From Tateyamaria sp. syn59 (GTDB taxonomy: Bacteria > Pseudomonadota > Alphaproteobacteria > Rhodobacterales > Rhodobacteraceae), in the NCBI RefSeq assembly GCF_007995245.1, contig NZ_VCBA01000007.1, positions 1-64,000 of the forward strand: a DNA stretch of 64,000 nt. Direction: 5' to 3'. The position numbers were made by a program, and so were the translations under genes. This document shows positions 35,723 through 43,305 of this stretch, piece by piece (the first letter of the stretch is position 1; every line of letters begins with the position of its first letter). Under the pieces are notes generated by a model, which worked only from the letters and a program-made list of their open reading frames with translations, was not told where the DNA came from and ran no database searches.

Positions 35723-36594
35723 GGCGCGATGAAGGTGACGCCGGGAATGGCCGCCACGCGCGCCATGTCTTCCTCGTACAGCTGGGTCATCCTGTCGATG
35801 GTCTCTTCGGTCCAGCCGGGGGCATTCAGTTCTTCCTCGATCTCTTCCTCGATCGCAAACTTGTCGAGAAAGGCGATGATCACGCGGCGCTTTTGCGCCT
35901 CAGTCATGGTCGGGTGGGACTTGAGGTAGGATCGGAAGCGCTGCATGCCCTCCTTGGACATGATCTCGGCCAAAAGGTCGAAGCCGCCGATGATCTTCTC
36001 GCCTGTTGGCAGCCCTGCCAGATCGCGGACGATCTGCGCCCACAGGATGGGCATGTCTTCGAAGCACCATGTGGTGATCGTGACGTCGGGCGCGGCTGAG
36101 CGTATCGCTCCGATCGTATCGGACCAACGGACGGCATAAGGATCGGCACCGCGCAGAAACGCGTCCATGTCATCCTGGGGTGCCTGGTTGAAAAGCGCAG
36201 GCAGGAACGTTGCCGGGTTGCGCATGGCGAGGAACACCTGCACCTGGTCATGTTCGAACAGCGCCGACAATTGCGAGATCCGTTCGGGTGCGGCTTCGTA
36301 AATAAAGCCATTGCGGACGCATGATCGCGGTGCGCCGAACAGGAACATGTGGCTCAGAACCATGCGTTCTGCGCTTTCGTCATCAAGGATGAGGTCCAAC
36401 AGGACGTCGCGCGCATCGGGGGCAGGGGGTGCATCCTGCAGGGCGGCCATGGTCTGTTTCAACAGGCTCCGGTACTTGCCCGGCCCGGGTACCGCGATCC
36501 CGCGCTTCGAAAAATCCTCCTTGTTGCGCAGGAGGCAGCGGACAAGTCGGTCCTCTTCGGTAAAGTGGGCACCTGCGTGAAGGACAATTTGCAT
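35719..36594 (-). CDS. Sulfotransferase-like protein of unknown function
   Basis: Protein of 291 residues beginning MQIVLHAGAHFTEEDRLVRC, a pattern seen in Rhodobacteraceae proteins with a weak sulfotransferase-type P-loop fold (5'-PSB-like region LHAGAH). The middle part (VQVFLAMRNPATFLPALFNQA) resembles the 3'-phosphate-binding R/S region of such enzymes. No catalytic base is certain. ATG 36594 is preferred; the upstream in-frame extension enters the tRNA region. Confidence 0.65.
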   Translation of the reverse strand: MQIVLHAGAHFTEEDRLVRCLLRNKEDFSKRGIAVPGPGKYRSLLKQTMAALQDAPPAPDARDVLLDLILDDESAERMVLSHMFLFGAPRSCVRNGFIYEAAPERISQLSALFEHDQVQVFLAMRNPATFLPALFNQAPQDDMDAFLRGADPYAVRWSDTIGAIRSAAPDVTITTWCFEDMPILWAQIVRDLAGLPTGEKIIGGFDLLAEIMSKEGMQRFRSYLKSHPTMTEAQKRRVIIAFLDKFAIEEEIEEELNAPGWTEETIDRMTQLYEEDMARVAAIPGVTFIAP

Positions 36595-36727
36595 GCGGAT
36601 CGACCTGCCAGGAACTGTGAGCGACTGGCGGTAGATAAACGAAAAACGCGTTGGGATAAAACCTCTGACCTGTTTGGAAAAACGATCTTGCCACCGCCAA
36701 GCGCACAGAGTAGACGATGCGTCCAAG

Positions 36728-36803
36728 GCCCCTATAGCTCAGCTGGTAGAGCAACTGATTTGTAATCAGTAGGTCCGCGGTTCGAGTCCGTGTGGGGGCA
36801 CCA
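36728..36803 (+). tRNA. tRNA-Thr (anticodon TGT)
   Basis: Full cloverleaf including encoded CCA. The acceptor stem GCCCCTA pairs with TGGGGGC (one G-U). The D-arm is AGCTCAGCTGGTAGAGC, the anticodon arm is CTGATTTGTAATCAG with anticodon TGT, and the T-arm is CGCGGTTCGAGTCCGTG. Discriminator A and CCA end at 36803. It reads ACA threonine codons. Confidence 0.96.
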
Positions 36804-36883
36804 TTTTCCAGAATCAGTAGCTCGATGCGCCCGTGCTAACGCATGCAGAGGTGCTGATTTCGTATGCCAAGAACCCCCTCGAA

Positions 36884-36897
36884 TTGACATTTGTCAA
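36884..36897. promoter_or_regulatory. Dyad TTGACA-TT-TGTCAA
   Basis: Perfect 6-bp arms around a TT centre, the size of a small regulator site. No -10 box is correctly spaced from its TTGACA, so it is not itself an obvious promoter. It lies 81 bp downstream of the tRNA and about 140 bp upstream of the next promoter. Confidence 0.35.
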
Positions 36898-37037
36898 GTG
36901 CCGGGCACTGCCGAAAACACGGTCGGTATAAACCCCGTGTAAACCCGCGATGTAAGGTGGGTTTCCGCACCCACGCCGCGGTTTGCAACTGGCAGATTTC
37001 TTCTTGGTGCCAGGCGCTGTGCGGCCTCGGCGTGGTT

Positions 37038-37066
37038 TTGAAAAAGTATATAAAATTCAATATTCT
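37038..37066 (+). promoter_or_regulatory. Putative sigma70 promoter of the unknown operon
   Basis: The -35 box TTGAAA (37038-37043), a 17-bp spacer and the -10 box TATTCT (37061-37066) lie in an AT-rich patch. It is correctly oriented for the 54-codon ORF at 37229 and the operon at 37561. Confidence 0.5.
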
Positions 37067-37228
37067 AACTATCATTCTATCAGCCGAAAGACCCATAAAC
37101 CAAAGGTATAGGGGCGAACCAAGCCAGTTCGTAAACCGCCAAGCTATCGACCCCGTCACAGCTCTGCACAATCTGTTGATCAACGAACGGCGCATCACGT
37201 CGCTGTGACCAAGAAAGGTTGATCGCAA

Positions 37229-37393
37229 ATGCAACTGCACATGAACACCATTGCCTACGCTGCGCGTCCATCACTCACGGACCTGTTTCTGACCTTGAGC
37301 GCGCGGTACACCGGGGTCCCGGATTGCGGACCCCGGGCCTTTACGACCGAGAGCGGTCTTGCGCGTCACGATCAGCAAAAGGCGGTCGCGTGA
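37229..37393 (+). CDS. Possible 54-residue small protein upstream of the unknown operon
   Basis: ATG 37229 follows a GAAAGG site. The ORF has high third-position GC, like real genes here, and ends TGATG. It encodes MQLHMNTIAYAARPSLTDLF and then a Thr/Arg-rich part with one Cys (PDCGPRAF). A 9-bp hairpin (37311-37336) lies inside it. It could be a small protein, leader peptide or precursor peptide, or chance. No family is recognised. Confidence 0.35.
   Translation: MQLHMNTIAYAARPSLTDLFLTLSARYTGVPDCGPRAFTTESGLARHDQQKAVA
37311..37336 (+). other. GC-rich hairpin inside the leader region
   Basis: CCGGGGTCC (37311-37319) pairs perfectly with GGACCCCGG (37328-37336) around an 8-nt loop. No T-run follows. 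It may fold in the leader mRNA of the downstream operon. Confidence 0.5.
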
Positions 37394-37560
37394 TGTGCAA
37401 CACCCTTCATCCCGTTCCCGATTGCCCGCGTGCCGCCCTATGCGGATCGAAGTGCCAGCGCCTGCTTCAGGTATTGGAACAGCCCGGTGCACGCCCTGCA
37501 TCCCCCTCATTTTCACAGCACGCACCGCGGTGGTCCGTGCACAGCACCAAGGAGAAAGAC

Positions 37561-38163
37561 ATGAAATACTTCAAGCGGATCCGGAGCGACGTTGACGTCA
37601 CACCGTTCCTGAACGAGATCGCCAGCGTCGATGATGCCTGGGCACAGGCAACCGGCCGCCAGGACAAGATTGCCGTGCAGCGCGAGGCACTGGCTGTTCC
37701 CCTGCGCGGGCTGCGCAAGTCGATGCTTCTGGGCCGCAAGCGCCGGGACGTTCATGAAAGCCGCTGGACCACCGGTTCCATCCGGTTTCCCATCGCTCGG
37801 GCCTTTATCGAGGATGTGGCCACCGAACTCGACGCGGATATGAGCCGTGCCAAGATCGTGTGCCTGCCTGCGGGTCGCCGTGTCTATCCGCATATCGACC
37901 GTGGTGAATACTACCGGTTCCGCGGCCGCTACCACTTTGTTCTCAAGTCCTCTGCCGGGTCGTTCATGAAGGCGGGCGACGAAGAGGTCCGGATGAAAGA
38001 GGGTGAGCTGTGGTGGTTTGACAACGACCAGATGCACGAAGCGTTCAACGATGGCGACGAGGATCGTATCCACATCATCTTCGACCTCTTGCCCGCTGAC
38101 ATGCGTGCCAAGGCCGCTGCCGCGACCGAACGCGCGCGTGCCAAGCTCGAAAAGGCGGCCTGA
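37561..38163 (+). CDS. Aspartyl/asparaginyl beta-hydroxylase-like 2OG-Fe(II) oxygenase
   Basis: Protein of 200 residues. The iron-binding set is visible as His111 and Asp113 in YPHIDRG and His159 in QMHEAFN; Arg169 in DRIHIIFDL would bind 2-oxoglutarate. The beta-jellyroll strands (RYHFVLKSSAG, KEGELWWFDND) match the Asp/Arg-hydroxylase family. ATG 37561 has AAGGAGA six bases upstream; the open frame upstream has no family similarity. It is the first gene of a four-gene operon. The substrate could be a peptide, an amino acid or a small metabolite. Confidence 0.88.
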   Translation: MKYFKRIRSDVDVTPFLNEIASVDDAWAQATGRQDKIAVQREALAVPLRGLRKSMLLGRKRRDVHESRWTTGSIRFPIARAFIEDVATELDADMSRAKIVCLPAGRRVYPHIDRGEYYRFRGRYHFVLKSSAGSFMKAGDEEVRMKEGELWWFDNDQMHEAFNDGDEDRIHIIFDLLPADMRAKAAAATERARAKLEKAA

Positions 38164-38166
38164 GCG

Positions 38167-38994
38167 ATGTCACGTATTCACTTTCGACATGGTATTCCGG
38201 GCGCTGTTCCAAGCGCCTGGGTTATTCAGCCCGACGCGGGTGACAAGGGCCGGCCCCCCGTGGTCGCGGTCCACGGTCTGAACCGCGAGACGGAAGTTAT
38301 GGCAAACCTGCTTGCACCGCGGGCGGACGCAACCGGGCGCACCATTGTCCTGCCGATCTTCGACCTCACGTCCTGGCGCCGGTATCAGCGCGCGGCGTGC
38401 AAGCAACGGTCGGACTGGGCGCTGCTGTCCCTGCTGCGCGTGCTGCGGGATGACGGTGCAATCGGCGAAGGCCGTCCGGATATGTCGGGCTTTTCCGGCG
38501 GCGCCCAATTCGCGCACCGCTTTGCCTGGCTCCATCCTGATCACGTCGCGGGGCTATGCCTTGTGGCGCCGGGCTGGTGGACCTTTCCCGATGCGCGCGG
38601 CTCCTTTCCCCTGGCCATCGGTGATGGATGCAATGCGCACGAGTTTCGTTTTCGTGCCAACCTCAAACGCTTCCTGGATCGCGATATCCGCGTTTCCGTG
38701 GGGTCCCTTGATGTCCAACAGGACAGGAACCTGCGCCAGACTCCGGAGCTCAACGCGCTGCAAGGCGCGAACCGGGTGGCGCGTGCGCGTCGCTGGAGCG
38801 CAGCGGTCATCCGTGCCGCACGGCGGGTCGGTGTGCAGCCGCGCGTGGTCTTTGAACTGATGCCTAACTGCGTTCACAGCTTTTCAGACTGTGTCGCGAA
38901 TGCGCGGCTGGATCGCGCATTCGTCCCTGATTTCACTCCCCAACCCCAAACCCTGCCCTTTCGCGGGCAGGCCCAACTTAAAAAGGTGGCATGA
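38167..38994 (+). CDS. Alpha/beta-hydrolase-fold protein
   Basis: Protein of 275 residues. The oxyanion-hole segment is VVAVHGLNRE (about 32-41) and the nucleophile is Ser110 in DMSGFSGGAQFAHRFA. The acid is probably Asp182 or Asp186 (VGSLDVQQD), and His237 is in NCVHSF. The arrangement fits an esterase, peptidase or acyltransferase of the PHB-depolymerase/dienelactone-hydrolase-like type. No signal peptide is seen, so it is cytoplasmic. It starts 3 bp after the oxygenase stop, and its end overlaps the NTPase start (ATGATG). Confidence 0.85.
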   Translation: MSRIHFRHGIPGAVPSAWVIQPDAGDKGRPPVVAVHGLNRETEVMANLLAPRADATGRTIVLPIFDLTSWRRYQRAACKQRSDWALLSLLRVLRDDGAIGEGRPDMSGFSGGAQFAHRFAWLHPDHVAGLCLVAPGWWTFPDARGSFPLAIGDGCNAHEFRFRANLKRFLDRDIRVSVGSLDVQQDRNLRQTPELNALQGANRVARARRWSAAVIRAARRVGVQPRVVFELMPNCVHSFSDCVANARLDRAFVPDFTPQPQTLPFRGQAQLKKVA

Positions 38995-40055
38995 TGCATC
39001 TTCTTGATATGAATACTGACGCGGGCCCGCAGATCGCGGGCGCCAAATGGAGCTTTGTCACACGTCGCGTGCGCCGTGGGGCCGTGCAAAAACTGGATGG
39101 AGACCTGAGTGCCGTACGGTCCGGCGACCTTGTATTGGCCGAGGTTCAGGACATCGGCAGCCACAAGCGGCTGCAGCTGAGCGACGGGCGCTATTCCGCA
39201 CTGTATCCCAAGGATCGCATCGTGCTGGCCTGTGGCGACCGCTTTGCCGAGGATCAGTTCGAGGGCATTGCAGAACTCTCACTGGAAAGTGCCGATCTGC
39301 TCGCTGGTGGCGGCGTTATCGGCACGATGCTGTCGCGCAATGGCCGGGTCAAATGCCCGACGAGCCTGTCTGTGATCGGACGTCTGGCGGATGCAGATGG
39401 CAAAGTGCTGAACCTTGATCAGTTTGCCCTCGCCCCCAGCCATGGGCCTGCGCCTGCACGGGTGATTGGCGTACTTGGCACCGGCATGAACGCAGGCAAG
39501 ACGGCTGCCGCAGCCGGTTTGGTGAACGGGTTCACCCGCTACGGCGACAAGGTGGCTGCGATCAAGGCCACGGGCACGGGTTCGTTCGGTGATGTGCATC
39601 AATACGAAGCGGCGGGCGCTGCACGCACGCTCGACTTCACGGATGCAGGCTTTGCCTCGACGTTCCGTCAGCCGGTGGACAAGATCGAGACACTGACCCG
39701 CACCCTGCTGTCTGCGGCATCGGATTGCGACATCGCAATCGTTGAGCTTGCTGATGGCGTCACCCAGGTCGAAACGGCAGAGCTGCTGAGCCGTCCCAAC
39801 TACTGTGCCCTGTTTGACGCGTTTGTTCTGGCTGCACCCGGCGCGCTGGCATCGCGCGGCGCGCTGGCCTGGCTCGCGGAACACGACATCACGCCGATTG
39901 CGCAGACCGGCCTGATGACGCAGGCGCCGCTGGCCGCACGAGAGGCGGAAACGCTTGGTCTGCCCGTCCTGTCGCGGGAGGATCTGTCCGACCCGGCAAC
40001 GGCCGGTTCGCTGCACAACCTGCTGTCAGAAGCCTGCCAGGAGCATGTGGCATGA
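38991..40055 (+). CDS. P-loop NTPase, DUF1611-like
   Basis: Protein of 354 residues in two parts. Residues about 1-150 are a beta-rich region with no recognised domain (LAEVQDIGSHKRLQL). From residue 157 a P-loop domain follows: Walker A GTGMNAGKT (163-171, Lys170), IKATGTGSFGD (191-201) and the acidic strand IVELADGVTQVE (250-261). This layout resembles the DUF1611 C-terminal domain and dethiobiotin-synthetase/MobB-type enzymes, which often activate a carboxylate. Both junctions overlap by 4 bp, so it is strictly coupled within the operon. Confidence 0.75.
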   Translation: MMHLLDMNTDAGPQIAGAKWSFVTRRVRRGAVQKLDGDLSAVRSGDLVLAEVQDIGSHKRLQLSDGRYSALYPKDRIVLACGDRFAEDQFEGIAELSLESADLLAGGGVIGTMLSRNGRVKCPTSLSVIGRLADADGKVLNLDQFALAPSHGPAPARVIGVLGTGMNAGKTAAAAGLVNGFTRYGDKVAAIKATGTGSFGDVHQYEAAGAARTLDFTDAGFASTFRQPVDKIETLTRTLLSAASDCDIAIVELADGVTQVETAELLSRPNYCALFDAFVLAAPGALASRGALAWLAEHDITPIAQTGLMTQAPLAAREAETLGLPVLSREDLSDPATAGSLHNLLSEACQEHVA

Positions 40056-41653
40056 GCCGCAGACCGGCCATAACAGCCGATCGCCGGTGGATGGGGCTGT
40101 GCGCCCTGGTCTTCCTGGCGATCGGACAGGCGGTCACCATGGTTGTAACCGCCTTTGCGACCCGCGACGTGATCGGTGCGTTGCGGGACGGGAGCGGTGT
40201 TGTTCCCATGCAGGCCCTTGTGGCCATGGTCGTGGCGGGATTTGCGATTTTCGCGCTCCGTTCAGCCGAAGGCGCAATTGGAGAGCGCACCGGCCAAAGC
40301 TATGCGGCCGCGATCCGTCGCACCCTGTTTCTTCACATGACCAAGATGCCTGCCAGCGCCATGGCGCGCCGCCGTGCGGGCGCGACAGCCTTGCGCTATG
40401 TCGGCGACCTGACGGCCTTCAAGGGCTGGGTTGCGCGCGGTCTTGTCCGTTTCATTTCGGCCGGGGCGACGATTCCCGCGGCCTTTCTCATCCTCTACTG
40501 GCTCGAGCCGCGTCTCGCGCTCGCCGCCGCCGTTCCGATCGGCATCGTCATGGTCGCTATCTTCTGGCTTGGCCGCCCCCTGGCCGCTGCCCATGCCACG
40601 CTCCGTTCCAAGCGGGCCCGCATGGCCGCAGATATGGCCGAACGCCTGCCGCAAGGGATTGCCCTGCGCCGCTCGGGCCGGGTCAAGACAGAATTGCGTG
40701 CGCTTGACGCCAAATCGGGCAAGATCGCGCGCGCCGCGGTCTGGCGTGCCTGGCTTGCCGAAACTGTGCGCGCCATGCCCGATGCGGCGGCAGGTATTGC
40801 AGGGGCGTTGTGCCTGTGGGTCTGTCTGGACCTCGGCCTCGGCGTTGCCGATGCGGTTGCGGCGCTCACCTCCCTTGCGCTGGTTGTCTGGCCGCTGCGC
40901 CACCTCGCGGATGCGCGCGACCGGCAGAAAGCGTTTGGTGTCGCGCGTGCGAAACTGGATGCGGTGCTGGCCACCCCTCGGATGCCTACCGTCAAAAGGA
41001 AGAAGGCTGACCCCAAGGCACCGGCCATTGAAATGGACGGCGTGCAATGGCCCGGTACTGCGCCCGTTGATCTTCACCTGCCGCGCGGCGCGATGCGGCG
41101 TCTGTGTGGCCCCGCAAGCTCTGGCAAGAGCCGTTTGCTCCTGACCTTGGCCGGGTTCGAAGCGCCTCCAAGTGACGGCACGCTCACGGTGCTGGGCAGT
41201 ACGCCCGAAGCGCTGCGTGGTGGTCGCATCCTTTACCTCGGGGCGCATGCGCCGACTTTGAAGGGATCGTTGCGCCGCGAGCTGACGCTCGGTACAGGCC
41301 GCACCCCCAAAGATGACGTGTTGCAAGATGTGATCCGCCGCGCGGGCCTTTGCGCCACCGCAGATCGTCTTGGCGGGCTGGACGGCAAGGTCGCCGAAGG
41401 ACGGCGCAACCTGACTGCGACTGAACGCGGGCGCCTGTTTGCGGCGCGCGGCTTGATCGCCCGTCCCGATCTTGCGTTGGTTGACGCGGATGAGATCGGA
41501 TTGGAGGGTGCAGCGCTAGCCGATCTGATTGCGCATTTCGACAATCTGGGCGCTGGCCTTCTGATCGTGACGTCCGACAAGAAGGCTCAGCTGAAACTGG
41601 GCGCACCGCTGCACCTGGAACTGAAGTCCGATGGGACTGCCGCGGCAGCGTGA
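40052..41653 (+). CDS. ABC exporter-like half-transporter with degenerate ATPase domain
   Basis: Protein of 533 residues. The N-terminal membrane domain has about six helices (about 13-290). The ATPase domain covers about 325-525. Walker A is intact (GPASSGKS, 353-360) and Walker B reads LALVDADE (474-481). The signature is NLTATERGR instead of LSGGQ, the Q-loop position lacks glutamine (LYLGAHAPTLKG), and the switch histidine is Ser/Asp (VTSDKK). It belongs to the CydCD/peptide-exporter type by layout. It starts inside the NTPase stop (ATGA). Confidence 0.82.
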   Translation: MSRRPAITADRRWMGLCALVFLAIGQAVTMVVTAFATRDVIGALRDGSGVVPMQALVAMVVAGFAIFALRSAEGAIGERTGQSYAAAIRRTLFLHMTKMPASAMARRRAGATALRYVGDLTAFKGWVARGLVRFISAGATIPAAFLILYWLEPRLALAAAVPIGIVMVAIFWLGRPLAAAHATLRSKRARMAADMAERLPQGIALRRSGRVKTELRALDAKSGKIARAAVWRAWLAETVRAMPDAAAGIAGALCLWVCLDLGLGVADAVAALTSLALVVWPLRHLADARDRQKAFGVARAKLDAVLATPRMPTVKRKKADPKAPAIEMDGVQWPGTAPVDLHLPRGAMRRLCGPASSGKSRLLLTLAGFEAPPSDGTLTVLGSTPEALRGGRILYLGAHAPTLKGSLRRELTLGTGRTPKDDVLQDVIRRAGLCATADRLGGLDGKVAEGRRNLTATERGRLFAARGLIARPDLALVDADEIGLEGAALADLIAHFDNLGAGLLIVTSDKKAQLKLGAPLHLELKSDGTAAAA

Positions 41654-42027
41654 TGCGAATGACAAAACTCACATTTCCTTGGAGCCGATACGTTTGACCC
41701 AAACGGCATTCACTTGGGCAGGCGTATCCGGCGCACATTGCAGATTGGCAAAAAGCCAGAAGCGCTGATTTTTTATGCGAACGAGAATTGAGAGCGCAAA
41801 AATAGTGCAAAAATGACCATTTTGGCTCATTTATTGTGCGATAGCGCGTGAGAATACAGGTGAGAACGATACCACTTGCGGCGGGCGGCAACGCTCAAAG
41901 ATTGTGCGATGGCGTCGGCCTAGGAAACCGTGGAACACCATCGCACTCCGCATCAGATGCGTAGGGGGGCATATGGATGTTTGGAATTCCGAATGCAACG
42001 CCCTGCGCGACACGCAAGGGGACACAG
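41654..42027. other. Region upstream of urtA
   Basis: A 374-bp gap without a supported gene. It contains a direct repeat ATTGTGCGATRGCG at 41833-41846 and 41901-41914 (13 of 14 bases, 68 bp apart) and an AAATGA/TCATTT inverted repeat around 41811-41832. These are plausible regulator sites for urea or nitrogen control of urtABCDE. No NtrC or sigma54 site was recognised. Confidence 0.4.
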
Positions 42028-43305
42028 ATGTCTAAAAGACTATTCACCACAACCGCTGCCTTGGCCGTCATGGCAGCACTGCCTGCCGTTGCACAAGACT
42101 GCCCGATCAAGGTCGGCGTTCTGCACTCGCTGTCCGGGACGATGGCGATTTCGGAAACGACGCTCAAAGACACAATGGAAATGCTGATCGAGCAGCAAAA
42201 CGCCGCCGGTGGCGTGTTGGGTTGCCAGCTTGAAGCCGTGGTGGTCGATCCGGCCTCTGACTGGCCGCTCTTTGCTGAAAAGGCGCGCGAGCTGCTGACC
42301 GTGCACGAGGTCGACGTGATCTTCGGCAACTGGACATCCGTGTCGCGCAAATCCGTGCTGCCCGTGATCGAAGAACTGAACGGCTTGCTGTTCTACCCCG
42401 TCCAGTACGAGGGCGAGGAAAGCTCGAAAAACGTCTTCTACACCGGTGCCGCACCGAACCAGCAGGCAATCCCGGCGACCGACTACTTCCTCGAAGAACT
42501 GGAAGTTGAGAAATTCGCGCTGCTCGGTACCGACTACGTGTATCCGCGGACCACGAACAACATTCTTGAATCCTACCTCCAGCAAAAGGGCATCCCGGCC
42601 GAAGACATCTTCGTCAACTACACGCCCTTCGGTCACTCCGACTGGTCCAAGATCGTGGCTGACGTAGTGGCGCTGGGCGCTGACGGCAAAAAGGTTGGCG
42701 TGATCTCGACCATCAACGGCGATGCGAACGTTGGCTTCTACAAAGAGCTGGCCGCTGCCGGCATCTCGGCTGATGACATCCCGGTCGTGGCCTTCTCCGT
42801 CGGTGAAGAAGAGTTGTCCGGGCTCGATACGTCGAACCTGGTCGGTCACCTCGCGGCCTGGAACTACTTCCAGTCCGCTGACACCGAAGCCAACGAGGGT
42901 TGGGTTGAAGCATGGAAGGCCCGCATGGGCGAAGACCGTGTGACCAACGACCCAATGGAAGCGCACTACATCGGCTTCAACATGTGGGTTAACGCGGCAA
43001 CCGAGGCGGGCACCACCGATGTGGACGCTGTGCGCACAGCCATGTACGGCCAGGAATTCCCGAACCTGACAGGCGGCACGGCTGTCATGCTGCCGAACCA
43101 CCACCTCGCCAAACCGGTCCTGATCGGTGAGATCCTCGAGGATGGCCAGTTCGACATCATCAGCCAGACCGAAGAAGTGCCCGGCGATGCCTGGACCGAC
43201 TTCCTGCCAGAATCGGCCGTTCTGGTGTCGGATTGGAAAGAGCTGGGCTGCGGGATGTACAACACCGAGACATCCAGCTGCGTGCAGATCAAGTCGAACT
43301 ACTGA
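42028..43305 (+). CDS. urtA: Urea ABC transporter substrate-binding protein
   Basis: Periplasmic binding protein of 425 residues. It has a signal peptide (about 1-22, ending PAVA) and the UrtA-type mature start CPIKVGVLHSLSGTMAISET. Other UrtA landmarks are DPASDWPLFAEKARELL, FGNWTSVSRKSVLPV and LFYPVQYEGEESSKNVFY. ATG 42028 is preferred over an in-frame ATG 17 codons upstream because the signal peptide then starts properly. It heads urtABCDE. Confidence 0.95.
   Translation: MSKRLFTTTAALAVMAALPAVAQDCPIKVGVLHSLSGTMAISETTLKDTMEMLIEQQNAAGGVLGCQLEAVVVDPASDWPLFAEKARELLTVHEVDVIFGNWTSVSRKSVLPVIEELNGLLFYPVQYEGEESSKNVFYTGAAPNQQAIPATDYFLEELEVEKFALLGTDYVYPRTTNNILESYLQQKGIPAEDIFVNYTPFGHSDWSKIVADVVALGADGKKVGVISTINGDANVGFYKELAAAGISADDIPVVAFSVGEEELSGLDTSNLVGHLAAWNYFQSADTEANEGWVEAWKARMGEDRVTNDPMEAHYIGFNMWVNAATEAGTTDVDAVRTAMYGQEFPNLTGGTAVMLPNHHLAKPVLIGEILEDGQFDIISQTEEVPGDAWTDFLPESAVLVSDWKELGCGMYNTETSSCVQIKSNY

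Follow-up and report, generated by a model that had tools for sequence, protein, structure and literature searches.

Among the described enzymes closest to the proteins of this study are Cpz10, a hydroxylase of the caprazamycin precursor, and poly(Asp) hydrolase-1. Cpz10 has the triad H115/D117/H160, with Arg170 near the active site (PMC9814697), and one member of the poly(Asp) hydrolase-1 group cuts beta-Asp amide bonds (PMC4456602). Here we describe a four-gene operon that brings a relative of each together with a predicted P-loop enzyme and an ABC-exporter-type membrane protein. It lies in a 64,000-nucleotide stretch of DNA from Tateyamaria sp. syn59 (contig NZ_VCBA01000007.1, positions 1 to 64,000; the whole stretch is hereafter the window). 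All four open reading frames (ORFs) are on the + strand: ASPH (gene 1, 37561..38163, 200 aa), a member of the aspartyl/asparaginyl beta-hydroxylase superfamily (PF05118) and predicted 2-oxoglutarate/Fe(II) hydroxylase; HYD (gene 2, 38167..38994, 275 aa), an alpha/beta hydrolase resembling LpqC and poly(Asp) hydrolase-1; NTP (gene 3, 38991..40055, 354 aa), a putative P-loop (SIMIBI/dethiobiotin-synthetase-like) enzyme with a beta-rich N-terminal domain; and ABC (gene 4, 40052..41653, 533 aa), a CydC/CydD-like membrane protein with a degenerate nucleotide-binding domain. ASPH and HYD are 3 bp apart, and HYD and NTP as well as NTP and ABC overlap by 4 bp each, in positions and spacing that agree with an initial annotation made from the sequence alone.

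A conserved gene unit around NTP

The grouping is a real conserved unit, with NTP and ABC as its core, HYD as a usual member and ASPH in a subset. One genome per species was scanned, which gave 162 confirmed loci with an NTP relative; the counts use the best 80 of these 162 and take as the neighbourhood the fetched stretch, up to 8 kb on each side of NTP. ABC was found near NTP in 76 of the 80 loci, HYD in 70 and ASPH in 29, as counted with family models built from the same 80 loci and with some contigs ending near NTP. With ABC, HYD and ASPH near NTP in these numbers, the concern raised in the initial annotation that the homologues might not be neighbours in other genomes was not borne out. 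Regulators were also common, in the form of a two-component pair or of an extracytoplasmic-function (ECF) sigma factor with its anti-sigma: sigma factors (SIG) were present in 35 loci, anti-sigma-like proteins (ASIG) in 34, response regulators (RR) in 31 and histidine kinases (HK) in 30. Exported subtilases (S8P), most of them Asp-rich, stood in 33 loci and lipoproteins (LIPO) in 11, a second small lipoprotein type in 6, and one or the other type in 17. Some of the counted neighbours are weak paralogues; strong matches numbered 75 for ABC, 69 for HYD, 33 for ASIG, 27 for HK and 26 for RR, with HK and RR both strong in 25 loci, and the remaining counts were unchanged by this rescoring, from which LIPO was left out.

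NTP and ABC are on the same strand in 70 named loci, and their start and stop overlap in 63 of the 70, in 39 by the identical 4 bp, which is more than chance would give. Gene order and strand vary across loci. Pelagibius-like genomes (e.g. L046) have the order LIPO-ASPH-HYD-NTP-ABC-HK-RR; six Roseobacter/Aestuariivita loci (L074, L076, L080, L094, L099, L101) have NTP-HK-RR on the strand opposite to ABC-HYD-ASPH; many Rhodobacterales have HYD-NTP-ABC, partly with S8P-SIG-ASIG close by; and a paralogous locus in the window's own genus comprises an Asp-rich (EF-hand) protein, NTP, ABC, HK and RR. The named loci are mostly from Alphaproteobacteria (many marine Rhodobacterales, Pelagibius and its kin), with some Burkholderiales, Nitrosomonas and a few metagenome-assembled genomes of other groups. 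Row L036, which has a stop inside its range, was left out of one comparison. Two further records are doubtful in their titles: L075 (JAFKDC010000004.1), titled Enemella evansiae (Actinomycetota), bears an alphaproteobacterial-type cluster and its title is probably wrong, and L091, titled Anaerolineae, looks mislabelled, with an ABC near-identical to that of L060, an alphaproteobacterial metagenome-assembled genome.

Co-occurrence was assessed in 394 genomes of the host family, nearly one per genus, in which each protein family was searched separately. With strong cut-offs that were chosen after the lists were seen (NTP E<1e-70, ASPH E<1e-50, HYD E<1e-50, S8P E<=1e-60), NTP was found in 27 genomes, ASPH in 14, HYD in 16 and S8P in 64. 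These counts exclude 24 more genomes in which NTP matched less strongly (E 1e-27 to 1e-40 in three, about 1e-3 to 5e-5 in 21); weak matches likewise kept four genomes out of the ASPH count and one out of the HYD count. NTP was present in 13 of the 14 ASPH genomes and in 15 of the 16 HYD genomes (hypergeometric 4e-16 and 5e-19, respectively, taking genomes as independent). The ASPH exception, G033, is the weakest of the 14, and in the HYD exception, G405, NTP is fragmented and adjoins HYD. For S8P the overlap was 14 of 64 S8P genomes, which is 14 of the 27 NTP genomes (hypergeometric 9e-6). ASPH is distant from NTP in five of the 13 shared genomes: about 68 kb away in G168, about 940 kb in G344, where an ASPH-HYD-ABC block and an NTP-ABC-HK-RR block stand apart, and on a separate contig in G106, G384 and G427. 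Hence, co-occurrence is not explained by position or by co-transfer of one block alone. The four genes thus hold as the single unit that had been proposed, with linkage kept in named genomes and presence correlated even where the genes are unlinked, but the unit is larger and more variable than the window alone could show.

The four proteins and their predicted sites

ASPH matched PF05118 with E=3e-17 (63.4 bits vs a Pfam cut-off of 22.6) and carries the motif residues H111/D113/H159/R169, of which H111, D113 and R169 are present in 30 of 30 aligned members and H159 in 29 of 30. The nearest solved folds to its AF2 model (pLDDT 83, with two stretches below 50) were Cpz10 (7v4f) at the top, proline hydroxylases and human AspH, and Cpz10 was also the nearest solved sequence (E 4e-5). 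Judged by family score and by its putative metal and 2-oxoglutarate residues, ASPH is a predicted AspH-type 2-oxoglutarate hydroxylase, so that the Asp/Asn-type hydroxylase with an HxD/H/R set had been read correctly. Genome G205, in which ASPH was not found, has a different type of 2-oxoglutarate oxygenase (PF13640) upstream of NTP and on its strand (L254 8108-10258); the PF13640 enzyme is perhaps an unrelated replacement.

In HYD, the Pfam alpha/beta hydrolase match was below threshold (0.039), and the assignment comes from PDB sequence matches to 3d0k (LpqC, 1.3e-9) and 6ve6 (poly(Asp) hydrolase-1, 1.5e-9). S110, within GFSGGAQ and singled out in the initial annotation, is present in 70 of 70 aligned members; D182 is present in 70 of 70 and H237 in 69 of 70, and we read S110/D182/H237 as the putative catalytic triad. 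Inspection by eye gave no export signal, and the score against the NCBIfam model of polyhydroxyalkanoate (PHA) depolymerase, 17.6 bits, was below the cut-off of 150.

NTP reached no Pfam family above cut-off. Its Walker A motif, GTGMNAGKT, starts at residue 163, and G163, K170, T171, D215, D218, E252 and D255 are present in 81 of 81 aligned members. The AF2 model (pLDDT 92.7) gave partial matches to dethiobiotin synthetase, SRP-type and HypB folds, with TMt up to 0.57 and TMq up to 0.39 (P-loop fold matches 3of5, TMt 0.57, and 3fmf, TMt 0.55). The structure prediction called for in the initial annotation thus yielded a BioD-like P-loop match and no full-length match among the matches listed. 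A PDB sequence search returned no solved structure for NTP, the MobB model scored 22 bits vs a cut-off of 76.2, and the BioD model did not match. On the basis of its model and Walker A residues, we class NTP as a BioD-like P-loop (SIMIBI) enzyme.

NTP had been labelled a DUF1611-like NTPase, and of this label the P-loop part stands while the DUF1611 kinship does not go beyond a sub-threshold resemblance. NTP scored 12 bits against DUF1611_C, vs a cut-off of 25, and did not match the Rossmann-like DUF1611_N; the hhalign probability was 0.7%, in a weak test with a single target sequence. The window's genome encodes a true DUF1611 protein elsewhere (L264 1114-3142, G000:C6), which matches both domains, and membership of NTP in DUF1611 was rejected on these grounds. 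The gene that follows the true DUF1611 protein is one we take to be enolase-type and epimerase-like, and the two look like the D-glutamate pair dgcN-dgcA.

The window's ABC protein (P0004) matched ABC_membrane at 3.5e-13 (50.3 vs 28 bits) and ABC_tran at 4.5e-6 (27.8 vs 25 bits), and its best NCBIfam scores, for CydC and CydD, were below the cut-offs (96.8 vs 329 and 89.4 vs 435 bits, respectively). The Walker A motif, GPASSGKS (353), is intact and is the sole consensus motif left of the ATP site; the C-loop (NLTATERGR), Walker B (LALVDADE), H-loop (IVTSDK) and Q-loop (YLGAHAP) all depart from the consensus. Across an alignment of P0004 with 75 relatives, Walker A was kept in 43 of 76 proteins and lost in 33. 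Of the proteins without Walker A, one retains the Walker B DE, one the C-loop and none the H-loop His, vs 31, 36 and 30, respectively, among the 43 with Walker A. Ten membrane-domain residues (E78, R89, G118, D119, E197 and E214 among them) are invariant in 76 of 76. With Walker A gone, 33 of the 76 proteins cannot be ATP-driven exporters of the ordinary kind. In a tree of membrane-part sequences (81 rows, of which five are genus paralogues), the Walker A state changes at least 4 times, or 3 times without L055, a long branch whose placement matters, and supported branches force 2 changes; P0004 sits in a clade of five, in which Walker A is intact. As judged from its motifs, the ATP site is wholly lost in whole ABC lineages, through at least two changes, and the degenerate ABC exporter of the initial annotation proves to be part of a family-wide trend. 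In G724, a relative from another class, the ABC likewise has no recognised ATP domain. ASPH was present in 29 of 42 loci with Walker A vs 1 of 39 without (Fisher 7e-11, with L100 scored as Walker-A-less though it bears one); we do not claim an association, as only 2–3 phylogenetically independent pairs underlie it.

Remote relatives and surroundings

Outside the core clade, NTP relatives adjoin an M20 enzyme in G666, G239 and G169, an assignment made by family search for L255 and L246 and by eye for L256. In G690 (L247 5089-8739), a remote NTP relative lies between ArgR and ArgC-ArgB, and no ArgJ was found in that genome (ArgA was not searched for); this relative might replace the acetylglutamate-forming step. 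On a Priestia megaterium plasmid (L216 2730-11418), an NTP relative is accompanied by a phosphoenolpyruvate-mutase-like protein (318.3 bits vs a cut-off of 319.55), the halves of a sulfopyruvate/phosphonopyruvate-decarboxylase-like (thiamine diphosphate) protein, two ATP-grasp ligases, an M20 enzyme and an alkanesulfonate-monooxygenase-like protein, perhaps a phosphonate or sulfonate peptide pathway. Because of these contexts we favour amino-acid or peptide chemistry for NTP, although they fall short of proving it for the window's operon. In a sister clade (L217, L252, L253), ABC or type I secretion genes and a PGA_cap protein stand close by, and L217 and L252 also have HlyD. In two of three loci (L252 and L261, the latter from Microvirga) the PGA_cap protein is fused to an ATP-grasp domain that resembles cyanophycin synthetase but scores below the cut-off of that family. 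NTP of the sister clade (L252 7566-15493, L253, L217/L261) has a long C-terminal extension, Mutator-transposase-like in Microvirga, and is found with LPG_synthase_C proteins. The sister clade may represent a polymer or peptide system in its own right, one so far undescribed.

The S8 subtilase clade is widespread in the host family (64 of 394 genomes); in many NTP loci its members bear an Asp-rich tract and adjoin genes for an ECF sigma factor and a protein resembling an anti-sigma. Being commoner than NTP and only partly associated with it (14 of 27 NTP genomes), the subtilase was rejected as a core member. Asp-rich ORFs, defined by at least 11 D in 25 residues, were found in 30 of 80 loci vs 0 of 20 control stretches of similar length, which came from genomes other than those of most loci (Fisher 6e-4). 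Subtilase loci make up 28 of these 30, five subtilase loci are without the tract, and subtilase and ASPH occur together in just 10 of 80 loci. In six paralogue loci of the window's genus an Asp-rich ORF stands right before NTP, with an EF-hand confirmed by Pfam in the one tested, and in Paracoccus albus a similar ORF (EF-hand below cut-off) precedes HYD. The window has no Asp-rich ORF; a subtilase of the same clade that bears no Asp tract lies elsewhere in its genome, close to a sigma-like gene. NTP also matched on 8 plasmid records, of which six were opened. Two plasmid loci (L218, L219) have S8P, SIG and HYD beside NTP and ABC; an Asp-rich ORF whose EF-hand match is below cut-off is also present in L219, and L218 adds a C39-peptidase ABC exporter and an HlyD-like gene.

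Upstream of the operon, the promoter, leader hairpin and 54-codon ORF that had been thought to add to the picture found no support. One promoter-like site was found vs 1.2 expected, and the hairpin (37311-37336) folds about as well as shuffled sequences (z -0.88). Promoter and hairpin were set aside as regulatory evidence because they are at chance level, though one close relative, L014, preserves the stem (z -1.37). The 54-codon ORF keeps its frame and length in L014 (65% identity) and is shortened or different in two other close relatives; with frame and length intact in one of three, it was rejected as a peptide precursor. An Rfam search of 36500-42200 gave nothing besides one tRNA, a tRNA-Thr (TGT) at 36728-36803 of the window, and no tRNA was seen within the fetched 15 kb of the genus relatives L014 and L016, both of which have the operon. 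Downstream lie genes that, from their translations, we take to be a urea-type ABC uptake system. Two relatives without detected NTP share the DNA downstream of the operon and differ in the upstream DNA, so that they offer no clean empty site. None of the four operon proteins matched a PADLOC model (E up to 0.01), and a role in anti-phage defence was rejected on that account.

Possible function and comparison with known systems

We put at about 0.4 the probability that the operon acts as a module that tailors and exports a small acidic compound derived from an amino acid or peptide. The BioD-like P-loop site of NTP would serve to activate or acylate the compound at a carboxylate or amine, ASPH would hydroxylate it at the carbon beside a carboxylate or amide, and HYD would remove or transfer an acyl/amide group. 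ABC, as the membrane partner, would export the product in lineages with an intact ATP site and would probably be a passive or accessory membrane component in those that have lost it. In relatives, envelope sensing by a histidine kinase and response regulator, or by an ECF sigma factor and anti-sigma, could control the module, with envelope proteins (Asp-rich subtilase, lipoproteins) as possible partners. This proposal, in which we infer each reaction along with the compound class, export and regulation, draws on the observed linkage, start/stop overlap and co-occurrence, on conserved catalytic residues, on the Cpz10 fold match and on the small-molecule contexts of remote NTP relatives, the sister clade among them. 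The putative small-molecule or peptide pathway suggested in the initial annotation is plausible and gains from those contexts. Several observations weigh against it. Of the 27 NTP-positive genomes, 8 are without a strong match to both enzymes; 51 of 80 loci showed no ASPH near NTP and 10 showed no HYD; Walker A is gone in 33 of 76 ABC proteins; neither a ligase nor a peptide precursor is constant in the core; and the contexts that guide the chemistry belong to relatives beyond the core clade, on long branches and of unsure exact placement.

The erosion of the ATP site also bears on a somewhat unlikely alternative, an envelope-signalling complex in which ABC, once a transporter, would now serve as a sensor or scaffold and report to the neighbouring histidine kinase or anti-sigma, with NTP as a cytoplasmic switch and the enzymes as accessories. 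Bce-type systems offer a parallel for ABC as a sensor. Joint loss of the ATP-site motifs in 33 of 76 proteins with membrane-domain residues retained in all 76, at least 2 changes in Walker A on supported branches (4 on the best tree), the frequency of regulators at the loci (HK 30, RR 31, SIG 35 and ASIG 34 of 80) and the Roseobacter arrangement, which places HK-RR right after NTP, are all consistent with signalling. However, the window's operon directly adjoins neither a kinase nor a sigma factor and its ABC has Walker A intact, 30 of the 43 Walker-A-bearing proteins retain the H-loop His, and HYD and ASPH would be left without a role. An aspartate-centred system, as yet unrecognised, is unlikely: here an exported product containing Asp would have its (iso)aspartyl or acyl-amide bonds made and broken by NTP and HYD and would be beta-hydroxylated by ASPH, and the ABC exporter would more than once have become the membrane partner of a separate P-loop enzyme, no longer hydrolysing ATP itself. 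The kinship of HYD with poly(Asp) hydrolase-1, the Asp-hydroxylase fold, the Asp-rich ORFs in 30 of 80 loci and the cyanophycin-synthetase-like ligase of the sister system point in this direction.

Modification of proteins appears quite improbable. In that case ASPH would hydroxylate aspartates of exported Asp-rich proteins (the subtilase Asp tract or the Asp-rich tail of the EF-hand protein), HYD would edit isoaspartyl links, and NTP and ABC would have supporting roles. The excess of Asp-rich ORFs over controls, their place before NTP in the six genus paralogue loci and before HYD in Paracoccus albus, and the resemblance of HYD to poly(Asp) hydrolase-1, with the beta-Asp amide cleavage described for a group member (PMC4456602), fit this idea. 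Yet nearly all Asp-rich loci (28 of 30) are subtilase loci, five subtilase loci are tract-free, the subtilase clade is wider than NTP (64 of 394 genomes) and shares just 10 of 80 loci with ASPH, and the window is without an Asp-rich ORF, while the controls came from genomes other than most loci. That unrelated housekeeping genes are held together by chance or shared horizontal transfer is extremely improbable: the patchy spread (strong NTP in 27 of 394 family genomes) and the matches on 8 plasmid records would suit it, but the NTP-ABC overlap in 63 of 70 loci, linkage in differing orders and the co-occurrence of unlinked ASPH and NTP speak against it.

The tailoring-and-export module, if correctly read, points to an unseen exported metabolite or modification. 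No paper on this gene combination was found among the matches listed from the open-access text searched, which leaves out most subscription journals and so is not proof of novelty; the gene team is apparently undescribed. It is a recurrent team with intact active sites for which we found no name, and the enzyme at its centre has no Pfam match above cut-off. The loss of the ATP site from an exporter whose membrane part is conserved provides a natural series in which a role without ATP becomes testable.

Compared with known systems, ASPH shares with Cpz10 and the AspH superfamily the PF05118 fold, the H-x-D...H triad and an Arg ten residues past the distal His. Unlike Cpz10, to which it is 18% identical, it has a conserved N-terminal block of its own (ATGRQ...PLRGLRKS), and no nucleoside-antibiotic genes were seen near it. 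HYD resembles LpqC and poly(Asp) hydrolase-1 in sequence (E about 1e-9) and in its Ser-Asp-His set, and differs from them in having no export signal by eye, in its sub-cut-off PHA-depolymerase score and in its coupling to NTP. With DUF1611 proteins and DgcN, NTP has in common a P-loop domain and, by our reading, a similar motif order, and PGAP so names some NTP relatives; it departs from them in its sub-cut-off DUF1611_C and unmatched DUF1611_N. With BioD and other SIMIBI P-loop enzymes it shares the P-loop domain fold and Walker A, whereas it bears at its N terminus an additional beta-rich domain of ~150 aa, for which no full-length match was seen, scores below cut-off for MobB and does not match BioD. 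Finally, ABC has the ABC_membrane and ABC_tran layout of CydDC-type exporters and scores highest for CydC and CydD, but it falls far below their cut-offs, is encoded by a single gene instead of two, and has eroded ATP-site motifs.

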